From NCBI GenBank assembly GCA_016936505.1, contig JAFGXS010000006.1:1-64000 (forward strand): a stretch of 64,000 bases of DNA. Direction: 5' to 3'. This document shows, in pieces, positions 59,445 through 64,000 of the stretch. The notes beneath the pieces are model-generated. The model had not been told where the DNA came from and searched no databases. It saw only the letters and a program-made list of their open reading frames with translations. Source of the stretch: Bacteroidales bacterium (GTDB taxonomy: Bacteria; Bacteroidota; Bacteroidia; Bacteroidales; F082). Within the stretch, counting starts at the first letter, position 1. Every line of letters starts with the position of its first letter. Made by a program: the position numbers and the translations under genes.

Positions 59445-60287
59445 CTAATTAGCAGCCCTTTTCAACTGCCTTTTATAGACTCTTTTAGAAATCAGAATAC
59501 TAATCTCATAAAGTGCTTCCAGTGGGATAAATACCATCATTTGGCTAAAAACATCGGGCGGTGTAATAATTGCTGAAACAACCAACAAAATAATCACCAT
59601 ATATTTTCGGTTTTTCTTCAGAAAATCGGGCGTTAATACCCCAACACTTGTTAGAAAATAAACCAGAATCGGCAGTTCAAAAACCAAACCAACAGCAAAT
59701 GTGAGCGAAACCACAGTACTGATGTAAGAACTCAATGAAATTTGGTTTACCACATTTTGACTCACTGAATAGGTTCCCAAAAAATTAACCGTAATGGGTA
59801 CAATCATAAAATAACTGAATACAACTCCTATTAAAAACAAAAGCGTGCTAAATAACAATCCCCCACGTGAATATCTTTTCTCATTCTGCAACATGGCTGG
59901 TCGGACAAAACGCCATATTTCCCAAAGAATATAAGGAAACGACAAAATAACACCGGCAACCATTGAAATATACATATGGGTCAAAAACTGACCCGACATT
60001 TTTATGTTGATTATCTTCAGGTTCAGATCACCAAAGCACAATGATTTTGCATGGATAAGTTGTCCCAGTTCACACAACAAGCGATAAGTAATAAAATCTG
60101 ATCTGCTGGGAGCCAGAATAATCACATCGAAAATAACATGGCGATTGAGAAATGCTACTACAGCCAACACAACAACTGCAATAACAGACCGGACTACATG
60201 CCCCCTGAGTTCTTCCAGATGATCCCAGAATGACATCACTTTTTCGTCTGGGCCAGCGTTGTTATTTTTTGTTGATTGCTCTTCCAT
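59445..60287 (-). CDS. tatC: Sec-independent protein translocase TatC
   Basis: This 280-aa membrane protein has six helices. The opening MSFWDHLEELRGHVVRS is the TatC signature for signal-peptide binding. It includes an insert between helices 1 and 2 of about 40 residues. tatA/tatB are not in the window. It is convergent with mutS2 with no gap, and its own -7 box directly touches the terminator of the sulfur operon upstream. Confidence 0.94.
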   Translation of the reverse strand: MEEQSTKNNNAGPDEKVMSFWDHLEELRGHVVRSVIAVVVLAVVAFLNRHVIFDVIILAPSRSDFITYRLLCELGQLIHAKSLCFGDLNLKIINIKMSGQFLTHMYISMVAGVILSFPYILWEIWRFVRPAMLQNEKRYSRGGLLFSTLLFLIGVVFSYFMIVPITVNFLGTYSVSQNVVNQISLSSYISTVVSLTFAVGLVFELPILVYFLTSVGVLTPDFLKKNRKYMVIILLVVSAIITPPDVFSQMMVFIPLEALYEISILISKRVYKRQLKRAAN

Positions 60288-60305: not shown

Positions 60306-60336
60306 AAAAAAAACCTCACCGAAAAAGTGAGGTTTT
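60304..60336 (-). terminator. Terminator of the sulfur operon
   Basis: Perfect 10-nt arms at 60310-60319 and 60327-60336 with a 7-nt loop. On the minus strand they are followed by a run of U encoded by A residues 60305-60313. Confidence 0.85.
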
Positions 60337-60356
60337 TCATCAATAGAAAGCTAAAA

Positions 60357-60860
60357 TCAGGTAAACACAATTTGTGTACCTTCTCCATCACACATAGCAT
60401 ACAAGTCTCCAACAGTAATAATATCTTTTACAGCCGGATGCATGTCTTCCTTAGTCAGTTTAAACATATCAGCTGCCAGTTTACAGGCATAGATCTCACC
60501 ACCACCTGCTTCAATTAATTCCAGAAACTCATCAACCGGAGGCATGTCTAATCTTTCCATTTCTTTTTTCATCATGGCTGTTACACCTGATTCCACACCG
60601 GGTAAACCTCCAAGCATGGTTGGAAATGGCATTCCTCCGGGCATACGCATGCCAGGGTTCCCCACAGTTGAAGTGTGTAGTTTGTTCATGCGTTTTGAAG
60701 TAATGGCATCCAGTCCGAAGAAGGTGAAAAACAATTTAGCTTCAATACCTTCCATTACTGCACCATTAGCCATTACCAAAGCAGCATAAACATCCTCAAG
60801 ATTTGCCTTTGAACAGATTAAAAGAATCTTTTTCAAAGGATGTTTTTTTTCGTTTTCCAT
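60357..60860 (-). CDS. DsrE/DsrE2-family sulfur-carrier protein
   Basis: This 167-aa protein resembles the DsrE2/DrsE_2 family. It starts with the ILLICSKANLEDVYAALVMANGA Rossmann-like segment in two parts (Cys16 and the following helix). A Gly/Met/Pro-rich loop covers about 68-90, and Cys126 is in IYACKLAADMF at the usual active-cysteine site. Cys157 is a third. DsrE-type proteins accept sulfane sulfur on Cys and pass it to DsrC/TusE or TusA. Here it is the last gene of the operon, 15 nt after the DsrC-like gene. No membrane segment is evident, unlike some DsrE2. Confidence 0.82.
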   Translation of the reverse strand: MENEKKHPLKKILLICSKANLEDVYAALVMANGAVMEGIEAKLFFTFFGLDAITSKRMNKLHTSTVGNPGMRMPGGMPFPTMLGGLPGVESGVTAMMKKEMERLDMPPVDEFLELIEAGGGEIYACKLAADMFKLTKEDMHPAVKDIITVGDLYAMCDGEGTQIVFT

Positions 60861-60875
60861 AGTAATAGATGTTTA

Positions 60876-61187
60876 TTAGATACAGGACACGGGCTTGGGC
60901 ACACCCGCTATTTTTGTCGCCTTTTTCAAAGGAGCCCCGGGAAACAACTGATAAAAAGTTTTGGCATCAACTACTCCTGATTTATTAATTCCCCTGATAG
61001 TTAATCCCTCACCAGAAGCTACTTTTTCTCTGATATAGTCAATCACTTCAAAATGTTTGTCAGTAATTTCAATACCCTCTTCCTTTGCGATTTCTGTTGC
61101 AATTTCTTTTGTCCATTGTGAAGCGTCAGTCATGTATCCTTCTTCATTTACTTCAACATTAACGCCTGCAATTGATTTCGTTGCCAT
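60876..61187 (-). CDS. DsrC/TusE-family protein with one C-terminal cysteine
   Basis: This 103-aa protein is the full DsrC/TusE length. The C-terminal arm ends GVPKPVSCI with the conserved Cys102 (CysA). The second cysteine of true DsrC, eleven residues earlier, is Thr91. It is therefore of the TusE/one-cysteine class, suited to carrying a persulfide rather than forming the DsrC trisulfide with sulfite reductase. The start and helical core (TKEIATEIAKEEGIEIT, HFEVIDYIREK) match the family. No dsrAB or tusBCD is seen in the window. Confidence 0.87.
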   Translation of the reverse strand: MATKSIAGVNVEVNEEGYMTDASQWTKEIATEIAKEEGIEITDKHFEVIDYIREKVASGEGLTIRGINKSGVVDAKTFYQLFPGAPLKKATKIAGVPKPVSCI

Positions 61188-61213
61188 AATTTTTATTTTA
61201 AATAATGAATAAT

Positions 61214-61903
61214 TTATTTCTTAGCAGAATTCTTTTCAGATTCCTTTGCTATATTTTTCAAAAAAGTGATCATAAATCCGATTCCTTTTCTCATTTCAGG
61301 AGCATTCATTGCACGGGCGGCTTTAAATAACGAATACTCAGGAATATTCTCCACATCCATACTTTTGTATACCACAATTCCATTGTTCACAGCTTCAAGC
61401 ATCTCAGGCTGAGTAATGTTTTTAACAGTCTCCAGAATAGTAACAATGTTGTCAGCCAGACTCCGAACATCTTCAACAGAAAAATGTTCTACAATATTAT
61501 CAAAAATATGAATTGTTTCCTTTAAAAAATCAATATACCCCTTCGACTCCATGTCATTGAGCACTTTGATTCCATCCAAACCAATTTGCCTTAAAATTGG
61601 CGACACATCATGAATCAAATCCATTCCACTTTCCAACATTCCAAACACTTCATAAAGGGTATCAATGTTACGGACGGCTTTCAACAAAAGCATTTTTACT
61701 GCCTCACCATCTACTTCTACACCTGCTCCATCCAGTTCGGTTACTGCGGCTTTAAACATGTCATTACCAATTACCGAAATATCAGTTACCAAATCTGAAG
61801 CAGTTTGACGTACTTGCTTTTGTGCCATTACTTCTTCCAGAACAATATCCAGTTTACGATTGATATCGTCTATCTGTTGTTGTATTTCCATATTCTCTTT
61901 CAT
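61214..61903 (-). CDS. DUF1641 helical protein
   Basis: The ATG at 61903 (229 aa) was chosen; the longer frame begins with a TTG. The protein is all helical with a short N-terminal coiled coil (IQQQIDDINRKLDIVLEEV) and then repeated amphipathic helices typical of DUF1641. It has no cysteines. Genes of this family are often found beside sulfide:quinone reductase-like or formate/Hdr-type genes, but no activity is known. By position it may be a membrane-side adaptor for the FAD enzyme encoded upstream. Confidence 0.75.
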   Translation of the reverse strand: MKENMEIQQQIDDINRKLDIVLEEVMAQKQVRQTASDLVTDISVIGNDMFKAAVTELDGAGVEVDGEAVKMLLLKAVRNIDTLYEVFGMLESGMDLIHDVSPILRQIGLDGIKVLNDMESKGYIDFLKETIHIFDNIVEHFSVEDVRSLADNIVTILETVKNITQPEMLEAVNNGIVVYKSMDVENIPEYSLFKAARAMNAPEMRKGIGFMITFLKNIAKESEKNSAKK

Positions 61904-61933
61904 AGCTTTAAGTTTTTTGAGGTTCAAACTGGC

Positions 61934-63163
61934 TTAAAGCTTTTTGCCGGCCATTTGCATTTCAGAATCGATAGGCATTTCTTTACCTTTCAACAAAATA
62001 TGCCAGTACAACCAGCGGAAAATCAATTTACCGTAATGATTGGTTCGGGTTACTTTTAGCAGTCCGAATGGCCCTAATCCCGGGAACGGGAATGAACCGG
62101 CCAAAGGTTCAGTATCATAATTAAAGTCAATCAAGGTGCCTTTACCATAACCGGTTTCAATGTAACAGTTGGCATGACCATCAAAACTTGCGGTGTAAGG
62201 ACGTCCTTCAATGGCGCACATCAGGTTTTCTTCCAGAATTTCGGAAGCAAAGTGTGCTACCGAACCGGCTTTTGATGTAGGCAAATTAGCAGCATCGCCA
62301 ATAACAAAGATGTTCTTATAATCTCTTGCCTGAAGAGTGTGTTTATCTGTAGGAACAAAATTCATATCATCGCCCATTCCGCTTCGTTCTATCATCTCGT
62401 CGCCCATGTTAGTAGGAATGCTGACAAGACAGTCAAACTTTACTTCATTTCCTGCATAGTCCACAATCTTTTTTACATCGTTATCAACCTCAGCAACATT
62501 AAAATCAGGAACAATATTGATATTTTTCGATTTCAGAAGTTCACCCAGCATTTTTGTTGCGCGGGGCTTAGTAAATGCACCAGGCAAAGGAGTTACATAA
62601 GTAATATTTACCTTATCACGCATGCCTCTTTCGGTAAAAAAAGCATCGGCAAAAAAGACAAATTCAAGGGGGGCAACCGGACATTTGTAAGGTAATTCTG
62701 CAATATTTACAACAAGCTCTCCACCCTGCCAGGTTTTAAAGAAGTTGCTCAATGCCACAGCCCCTTCAATAGTATAAAAATCAAAGATTTCTTTGTACCA
62801 TAGTTTATCTTTCAAACCAGGTGTTTCTTCCGGGGCTGTTCGAGTTCCCGTAGCAATAATCAAATAATCATAATTTAAAACCACGCCATCAGCCAGAAGA
62901 ACATGGTTTTCATCAGGAATAATTTTCTCGATTTTTGAGTAAATAACATTCACTCCAATTGGGAAGAAATCACTTTTTGGCTTAATAACATCCTGGGCCG
63001 AATACATCCCGAAAGGAATAAACAAAAAACCCGGCTGATAATAATGGGTTTTATATTGATCTACAATCGTAATATCCCAATCTTCTCTGAGAAACTTTTT
63101 TCTTAATTTGTTGGCCATCATGGTTCCGGCTGTTCCGGCTCCCAAAATCAATAATTTTTTCAT
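61934..63163 (-). CDS. Sulfide:quinone reductase-like FAD oxidoreductase
   Basis: This 409-aa flavoprotein starts with the FAD motif GAGTAG (8-13) and has the second dinucleotide region LIIATGTRTAP (101-111) and FAD-closing VIGDAANLP (287-295). Cys161 (PYKCPVAP) matches the central redox cysteine of sulfide:quinone reductases and Cys333 (GHANCYIE) the probable partner; the third cysteine near residue 128 of some types is absent. A C-terminal amphipathic end (LIFRWLYWHILL) suits membrane contact. It leads the operon with DUF1641, DsrC-like and DsrE-like genes. A persulfide-forming role is inferred. Confidence 0.85.
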   Translation of the reverse strand: MKKLLILGAGTAGTMMANKLRKKFLREDWDITIVDQYKTHYYQPGFLFIPFGMYSAQDVIKPKSDFFPIGVNVIYSKIEKIIPDENHVLLADGVVLNYDYLIIATGTRTAPEETPGLKDKLWYKEIFDFYTIEGAVALSNFFKTWQGGELVVNIAELPYKCPVAPLEFVFFADAFFTERGMRDKVNITYVTPLPGAFTKPRATKMLGELLKSKNINIVPDFNVAEVDNDVKKIVDYAGNEVKFDCLVSIPTNMGDEMIERSGMGDDMNFVPTDKHTLQARDYKNIFVIGDAANLPTSKAGSVAHFASEILEENLMCAIEGRPYTASFDGHANCYIETGYGKGTLIDFNYDTEPLAGSFPFPGLGPFGLLKVTRTNHYGKLIFRWLYWHILLKGKEMPIDSEMQMAGKKL

Positions 63164-63333: not shown

Positions 63334-64000
63334 ATGAAAATAAAAAACGACATACTAAGCTGTAGGACATGTGTTTACAGGCAGTTACTATTTAAAGACC
63401 TTAATGATTTTGAATACAAACTGGTAAATGACAGCCGAACTGAGATGCTCTATAAGCGTGGTGAAGTAATTAAAAATGAGGGAGATCAGGTGAACTCCTT
63501 TATTTACTTACGAAAAGGTTTAGTAAAGTTGTATAAAACAGATTCTAATGGTAAAGACCACATTTTAAGTATCAACCGACCCGGAGACTTTATCAGTTTG
63601 CTCAGTATTTTTGCTGATGAGCCTTACCGGTTCAGTATTGCGGCACTGGAAGAAACACTTGTTTGTGATGTTAAGCTGGATGTTTTACAACATTTGATTG
63701 AAACAAACGGAAAGCTGGCCATGCACCTGTTTAAAAAAATGAGTCAGATTTCAGATGAAATTATTGAAAATCAGTTTGAGCAAGCCCAAAAACAAGTAAA
63801 AGGCCGGGTGGCACATTTACTGTTATATTTTGCCAATCACGTTTACCATAAAAATGAATTTTACCTCCCCTTAACCCGACGTGAAATGGGGGAACTGATT
63901 TCTATAACTACAGAAAATACAATCCGTACATTCTCTGAATATAGAAAAGATGGAATTATCGATCAGCAAGGCAAGACGATCAAGATTCTTGATTACGATC
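63334..64000 (+). CDS. Crp/Fnr-family regulator, 3' end cut by the window
   Basis: The reading frame is open from the ATG at 63334 to the window end (222 aa visible, near complete). A cyclic-nucleotide-binding-like beta barrel (about 35-120) and dimer helix (122-155) are followed by a winged helix (LTRREMGELISITTENTIRTF). Cys10, Cys13 and Cys111 align with FNR Cys20, Cys23 and Cys122 (VCDVKLDVL against VCEIPFETL), but FNR Cys29 is Leu19 here. It is divergent from the sulfur operon and may sense oxygen, redox or reactive sulfur to control it; this is an inference. Confidence 0.88.
   Translation, partial: MKIKNDILSCRTCVYRQLLFKDLNDFEYKLVNDSRTEMLYKRGEVIKNEGDQVNSFIYLRKGLVKLYKTDSNGKDHILSINRPGDFISLLSIFADEPYRFSIAALEETLVCDVKLDVLQHLIETNGKLAMHLFKKMSQISDEIIENQFEQAQKQVKGRVAHLLLYFANHVYHKNEFYLPLTRREMGELISITTENTIRTFSEYRKDGIIDQQGKTIKILDYD

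Follow-up and report, generated by a model that had tools for sequence, protein, structure and literature searches.

A probable sulfide-oxidation operon joining a type III sulfide:quinone reductase to one-cysteine DsrC-like and DsrE-like proteins in Bacteroidota

Type III sulfide:quinone reductases (SQRs; family NF049943) and the class III SQRs of cable bacteria, which passages of PMC13047784 describe, belong to one family and share a catalytic cysteine pair. According to the same passages, the cable bacteria carry genes for psr/phsABC, rhodaneses, and YeeE as well, and they possess full Dsr enzymes. Carriers of the DsrE and DsrC types occur together in one operon in the reverse Dsr pathway (DsrEFH-DsrC, Allochromatium type) and in the TusBCD-TusE system, and in Bacillus the DUF1641 genes for ForE and YjlC stand beside quinone-reducing enzymes without membrane-spanning parts. 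Here, we analyzed a stretch of 64,000 nucleotides from a Bacteroidales bacterium (assembly GCA_016936505.1, contig JAFGXS010000006.1, positions 1 to 64,000), hereafter called the window, and we confirmed that it contains a four-gene sulfur operon on the minus strand at 60357-63163, which encodes an SQR, a DUF1641 protein, a DsrC-like protein, and a DsrE-like protein. The SQR has the family and the cysteine pair of the cable-bacteria enzymes but, unlike them, shares its operon with a one-cysteine DsrC, a DsrE, and a DUF1641 protein. In contrast to DsrEFH-DsrC and TusBCD-TusE, the operon has no DsrF/DsrH or TusC/TusB, and its DsrC lacks the second cysteine; unlike in Bacillus, the putative partner of the DUF1641 protein is an SQR. 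We conclude that this is a real, deeply conserved operon, probably for sulfide oxidation, made of known parts in a combination that we did not find described; the operon was not found in titles or abstract starts of the open-access literature, which is weak evidence of absence.

To establish how widely the operon is conserved, we searched 60 genomes for the DUF1641 protein and found it in 25, the genome under study included. The loci of the 24 relatives were then read more widely: 23 contained all four genes in the same order on one strand, and the remaining one was cut by a contig end. A scan of named genomes with an SQR alignment (A1, built from 10 SQRs) gave 580 confirmed relatives, of which we kept the best 80; because of how they were chosen, these named loci are the closest relatives and are biased towards the arrangement seen here. 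All four genes stood in this order on a single strand in 74 of these 80 loci, and the contig stopped 587 to 1171 bases past the SQR gene in the other 6. Draconibacterium mangrovi, D. sediminis, Lutimonas halocynthiae, and many metagenome-assembled Bacteroidota are represented among them; the isolates D. mangrovi GM2-18, D. sediminis JN14CK-3, and L. halocynthiae CECT 8444 possess all four genes. Since the arrangement is found in 23 of 24 related and 74 of 80 named loci and the seven others end soon past the SQR gene, it is not due to chance. An earlier note on this DNA had called the four genes, placed them in one module closed by a shared terminator, and set the conservation of gene order beyond close strains as a test that could refute its proposal. 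The list of open reading frames (ORFs) and the family scores support the gene calls and the one-strand operon, a terminator-like hairpin was found ahead of tatC, and the gene order extends far beyond close strains.

The SQR scored 648.5 bits on NF049943, the type III SQR family of the selenoprotein subtype, against a cut-off of 525. Cys161 and Cys333 are present in all 74 aligned sequences and align with cysteines of human SQOR (8dhk), which we take to be residues 201 and 379. Cys333 sits in the tetrapeptide HANC, which fits the HxxU motif given for the selenoprotein subtype in passages of PMC13188914; unlike that subtype, the window has the cysteine form. A selenoprotein SQR in the window was rejected, as HANC was read and no internal stop occurred in any match listed above the cut-off.

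We then evaluated the partners of the SQR across the phylum. In a sample of 395 Bacteroidota genomes, 95 encoded an SQR above the family cut-off, 38 outside family f43 (the genome under study included) and 57 inside it, and we examined the loci of all 38 non-f43 genomes and of 13 of the 57 f43 genomes. DsrC- and DsrE-like genes lay directly downstream of the SQR gene, or of the DUF1641 gene, in each of the 38 non-f43 genomes. An SQR tree was built from 74 sequences, 23 from named loci hand-picked for spread and 51 from the phylum search. All three partners accompanied the SQR at 32 of these loci, DsrC and DsrE without DUF1641 at 28, and none at 13 (all f43); 1 locus was cut. DUF1641 was restricted to one of the two halves of the tree, and some members of that half seem to have lost it. 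As 28 loci keep DsrC and DsrE without DUF1641, the core unit consists of SQR, DsrC, and DsrE, with DUF1641 as a dispensable partner tied to lineage.

Two f43 loci had other genes nearby. A two-cysteine DsrC is encoded two genes past the SQR gene in L177, followed by ORFs of 422 and 363 amino acids that, from their size and order, may be the dsrAB genes of a green sulfur bacterium. In L218, the SQR gene is followed on the same strand by genes for a ferredoxin-type subunit and a psrA-like protein.

The DsrC-like protein scored 79.6 bits on TIGR03342 (TusE/DsrC/DsvC; cut-off, 53.5), and its penultimate residue, Cys102, is its only cysteine. Cys102 was invariant in the 31 sequences of alignment A3 (the window's and 30 of 76, from 40 picked). 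Thr91 occupies the position of the second DsrC cysteine in the window, and none of the 31 sequences has a cysteine in that column; a canonical two-cysteine dissimilatory DsrC was rejected, since Thr91 replaces the second C-terminal cysteine. The DsrE-type protein scored 83.8 bits on PF13686 (cut-off, 25). In alignment A4 (the window's sequence and 28 of 71, from 32 picked), Cys126 was present in all 29 sequences and Cys16 in at least 90%, and Cys126, which aligns with cysteines of 2qs7 and 3pnx, is a candidate sulfur-carrying residue. Thus, the earlier note was right to describe the DsrC-like protein as a one-cysteine form, and the residues that it had singled out, Cys126 and Cys102, are conserved (29/29 and 31/31). 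A sulfur relay via these two cysteines is plausible and fits their conservation. The operon suggests that one-cysteine DsrC and DsrE serve SQR directly, without Dsr sulfite reductase, in many Bacteroidota. Near the operon, a second, more distant DsrC-like gene occurs at L082:12245-12568 and a second DsrE-like gene at L110:17002-17604.

The DUF1641 protein scored 33.7 bits on PF07849 (cut-off, 21), a family matched by 36 of 38 DUF1641 relatives at E 0.01. We built a profile (A2) from 38 sequences, namely, the window's and 37 of 74 distinct ones (40 were picked for diversity, and 3 short ones were dropped). In the PDB, this profile matched ForE1 of Bacillus subtilis (8rqz_A) with an E of 4.4e-6, and the next rows had E values of 0.28 and 0.3; the ForE1 match covers the C-terminal part of DUF1641 only (profile positions 103-223). 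Passages of PMC8808070 report that ForE couples the Bacillus formate dehydrogenase to menaquinone and co-purifies with it and that, without ForE, menaquinone co-purification falls to 1.6% and formate:menadione activity disappears. Passages of PMC12020853 annotate YjlC as a DUF1641 protein, and in a passage of PMC4059632 yjlC-ndh is given as the unit for a type II NADH dehydrogenase. The title of PDB entry 9a63 describes a YjlC-YjlD model, and by sequence YjlD is related to the window's SQR (9pxk, E 2e-12). Furthermore, according to passages of PMC7409299, an SQR and a DUF1641 protein of Sulfobacillus have consecutive locus tags and are up 5.8- and 2.2-fold in sulfide concentrate.

The earlier note had assigned DUF1641 the role of an adaptor in sulfur transfer, a role that we revise. 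The protein of the window is a relative of ForE1, and DUF1641 is absent at 28 of 60 uncut non-f43 loci. A role as a sulfur relay protein was rejected, since the window's protein contains no cysteine and no column contained 3 or more cysteines among 25 aligned DUF1641 sequences; two DUF1641 matches among the related and named loci have a cysteine past residue 30. Because of its kinship with ForE1, the DUF1641 protein more likely serves SQR as a quinone or membrane subunit. By extension, DUF1641 proteins may act as accessory subunits for quinone-reducing enzymes that lack membrane-spanning parts, which would give them a testable common role as quinone-coupling subunits of SQR, formate dehydrogenase, and type II NADH dehydrogenase.

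With slightly more confidence than doubt, we read the operon as a sulfide-oxidizing unit composed of SQR, a DUF1641 quinone subunit, and a DsrE-to-DsrC relay that operates without DsrAB. The unit would lie at the inner membrane, on its cytoplasmic side, where SQR would oxidize sulfide, reduce menaquinone, and form sulfane sulfur on Cys161/Cys333. DUF1641 would dock on SQR and aid its reach to the membrane or to menaquinone, as ForE1 does for ForC1. Cys126 of the DsrE-like protein would take the sulfane sulfur and hand it to Cys102 of the one-cysteine DsrC-like protein, which would feed the sulfane pool of the cell (the genome encodes a TusA) rather than a DsrAB sulfite reductase. The operon is probably under the control of a divergent FNR-like regulator, and an adjoining operon may add periplasmic polysulfide/thiosulfate chemistry and sulfur import. 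We infer the substrate, the location, the SQR-DUF1641 contact, the order and direction of the relay, the regulation, and the functional link to the adjoining psr operon. Sulfide oxidation is proposed because the SQR scores far above its cut-off, has two invariant cysteines, and has the carriers beside it in 38 of 38 non-f43 genomes; the DUF1641 step is proposed because of the ForE1 match, the YjlC-YjlD parallel, and the SQR-DUF1641 pair of Sulfobacillus.

Several results weigh against this reading. The predicted model of the DUF1641 protein is poor (predicted template modeling score [pTM], 0.26). A Foldseek search with it gave no match at E 0.001, the top row being 9a63 (YjlC-YjlD) with an E of 0.41, and ForE1 (8rqz_B) came seventh among the VIA rows shown (Z 4.2), below unrelated helical chains. 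DUF1641 is absent from the stretch read at 28 of the 60 uncut non-f43 loci of the 74-sequence tree set. As for the carriers, a canonical TusE was rejected (PRK11508 equivalog, 68.8 versus a cut-off of 191 bits), the DsrE-like protein falls below the DsrE2 equivalog cut-off (NF047629, 88.8 versus 210), and DsrC and DsrE are missing directly downstream of SQR in all 13 examined f43 genomes, for three of which 1.5 kb on each side was read.

Other functions were also weighed. One is biosynthetic supply, in which sulfide would mainly be turned into carrier-bound sulfur for tRNA thiolation, iron-sulfur (Fe-S) clusters, or molybdenum enzymes, with energy gain secondary. The resemblance of the one-cysteine DsrC to TusE, which acts in tRNA thiolation, the TusA encoded in the genome, and the adjoining molybdoenzyme operon all point this way, but the TusE equivalog cut-off is missed (68.8 versus 191) and biosynthetic sulfur does not require an SQR; we regard this function as unlikely. 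Still less probable is sulfide detoxification, in which SQR alone would count and the carriers would merely buffer reactive sulfane sulfur. SQR is indeed widespread (95 of 395 Bacteroidota genomes above the cut-off), and f43 genomes keep it without carriers directly alongside (13 of 13 examined); however, the carriers never part from SQR in the 38 non-f43 genomes. We consider very improbable a reductive direction, in which imported zero-valent sulfur would be loaded on DsrE/DsrC and reduced to sulfide by the SQR-like enzyme running in reverse. Menaquinol, which we take to be a weak sulfur reductant under standard conditions, argues against it, as does the lack of any of the six psr-cluster gene kinds in the stretch read at 58 of the 80 named loci and 16 of the 24 related ones. 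Yet psr genes and a pair of half-size YeeE genes adjoin the operon, and passages of PMC10812762 report that YedE1E2 of Cupriavidus imports, and does not export, zero-valent sulfur.

The genome under study, which is 91.84% complete, bears on where the sulfur and electrons of the proposed sulfide-oxidizing unit could go. Unlike in the reverse Dsr pathway, NIR_SIR (PF01077, dsrAB-type) had no match in this 91.84%-complete genome; no search was aimed at hdr, persulfide dioxygenase, tusBCD, or mnmA. The NIR_SIR search detected its target in 11 of 14 controls. The genome encodes one DUF1641 protein, one DsrC-family protein, one TusA (on another contig), and one heme-copper oxidase subunit. Since a heme-copper oxidase is encoded, electrons from sulfide could reach oxygen.

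The sulfur context thought to be missing from the window begins just outside it. The contig runs on to 75479, past the window end, and a psrABC-like operon occupies its minus strand from about 64030 to 70252, starting about 30 bases beyond the window. This operon encodes two rhodanese-domain proteins, two half-size YeeE proteins, an NrfD protein, a ferredoxin-type subunit, and a molybdoenzyme. The best solved relative of the molybdoenzyme is 2vpw (665.9 bits), titled thiosulfate reductase and presumably from Thermus. The molybdoenzyme misses the PhsA equivalog cut-off (440.1 versus 694), and a passage of PMC13047784 states that Psr and Phs substrates are not distinguishable by sequence. The half-YeeE proteins have one conserved cysteine each (26/26 and 22/25 sequences), like the two half-size proteins of the YedE1E2/PmpAB zero-valent sulfur transporter described in passages of PMC10812762 and PMC11582611; unlike in that transporter, they are flanked by psr genes and by rhodanese-like proteins ending in -GGC, and a transport role is predicted here. 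The YTD cluster of sulfur disproportionators, as outlined in passages of PMC13047784, likewise combines a YeeE-type transporter with DsrE-type carriers, whereas the present locus has two half-YeeE proteins, rhodanese-like proteins, and psr genes, with TusA on another contig.

When we counted six psr-cluster gene kinds at the other loci (own locus not counted), 16 of the 80 named loci and 6 of the 24 related ones had at least three, and a further 6 and 2, respectively, had one or two. None was found in the stretch read, which was often short, in 58 named and 16 related loci, and these null loci speak against a fixed link of the SQR and psr operons. The psr cluster stands either downstream of the SQR operon or upstream of it, and in the latter case it runs with the operon or against it; given this variable placement, the linkage has probably been re-established on more than one occasion. 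In L069, L073, L081, and L084, extra genes separate the SQR operon from the psr genes; by their look, we take these to encode a Rieske protein and a cytochrome b.

The two rhodanese-like proteins of the adjoining operon, at about 64033-65312 of the contig (L051:4034-5313), scored 56.4 and 57.5 on PF00581 (cut-off, 22.2), lack the catalytic cysteine, and have Lys/Arg-rich tails ending in AAGGC. Alignment A5 covers the full set of 22 rhodanese-like proteins from the named loci. A C-terminal GGC was found in 38 of 38 rhodanese-like copies of loci L027-L131. Over all loci, with identical sequences and ORFs of <80 amino acids left out, 56 of 60 distinct rhodanese-like sequences ending in GC ended in GGC. 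The catalytic-cysteine column of these 60 sequences contained Ser (27), Gly (19), or Ala (13) and Cys in one, and the own copy has Ser opposite the cysteine of 6mxv. In a small control of rhodanese matches not ending in GC (n = 10), 4 had a cysteine in this column, and the others were gapped or doubtful. The predicted structure of a relative combines a helix at the N terminus with a confidently modeled rhodanese domain and a disordered tail. The -GGC rhodanese-like proteins may thus be swinging-arm sulfur carriers, which would make them a new kind of sulfur-carrying arm. In L189-L194, L197-L200, and L201, a YeeE half and a rhodanese-like domain are fused in one ORF of about 395-485 amino acids; the fusions match both profiles and end in GGC or EGC (EGC in L201). 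The -GGC rhodanese profile, applied at E <1e-45, found matches in 6 of 395 genomes, 3 of which had no SQR above the cut-off, and these counts also speak against a fixed linkage between the SQR and psr operons. An exception, L042, has a lipoprotein-like ORF of 196 amino acids with both a catalytic-type cysteine (VYCKKGKRG) and the end DGGEVGGC and is perhaps an intermediate form.

We entertain, as a tentative minority view, a two-sided circuit in which two quinone enzymes share one sulfur pool, with membrane-anchored rhodanese-like proteins outside and DsrE/DsrC plus SQR inside. Outside, the catalytic cysteine would in effect have moved to a flexible Lys-rich -GGC arm that shuttles sulfur between PsrABC and the split YeeE importer. 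Inside, DsrE and the one-cysteine DsrC would exchange sulfur with SQR, whose quinone site would be completed by DUF1641.

Coordinates of the operon and its flanking features in the window
Feature	Positions	Strand	Description
SQR type III	61934-63163	-	409 aa, ATG start; NF049943
DUF1641 protein	61214-61903	-	229 aa from ATG at 61903; PF07849
DsrC/TusE-family protein	60876-61187	-	103 aa; TIGR03342
DsrE-type protein	60357-60860	-	167 aa; PF13686
Terminator-like hairpin, operon end	60308-60338	-	13-pair stem + T tail
CRP/FNR-family regulator, divergent	63334-63999, cut by window end	+	PF00027 + PF13545

The DUF1641 ORF extends to 61927 (237 amino acids) if a TTG is taken as the start, and the tabulated ATG is the one that fits the alignment of relatives. 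The intergenic gaps in the operon measure 6 (30 with the ATG start), 26, and 15 bases. The hairpin sits between the DsrE stop and tatC. A terminator scan gave 2 such sites versus 2.1 in shuffles, and the terminator reading is based on the position of the hairpin, not on the number of sites. A promoter scan with a sigma-70 pattern, which may not suit Bacteroidota, gave 2 sites versus 9.6 expected, both on the plus strand.

The CRP/FNR-family regulator contains Cys10, Cys13, and Cys111. A regulator of this type is the divergent neighbor in 79 of 105 loci (L027-L131); all 79 relatives have a CxxC near their start, and 78 have a later cysteine, as expected for an Fe-S or thiol-based sensor. In L162, L163, and L175, which have no FNR-like gene, another ORF, presumably MerR-like, precedes SQR on the same strand. 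Downstream of the operon, tatC (59445-60287) follows on the same strand in the window's family and is not found there in the more distant L047, L049, and L050; its place beside an operon with a molybdoenzyme of the twin-arginine translocation (Tat) type may or may not have a meaning for Tat export.

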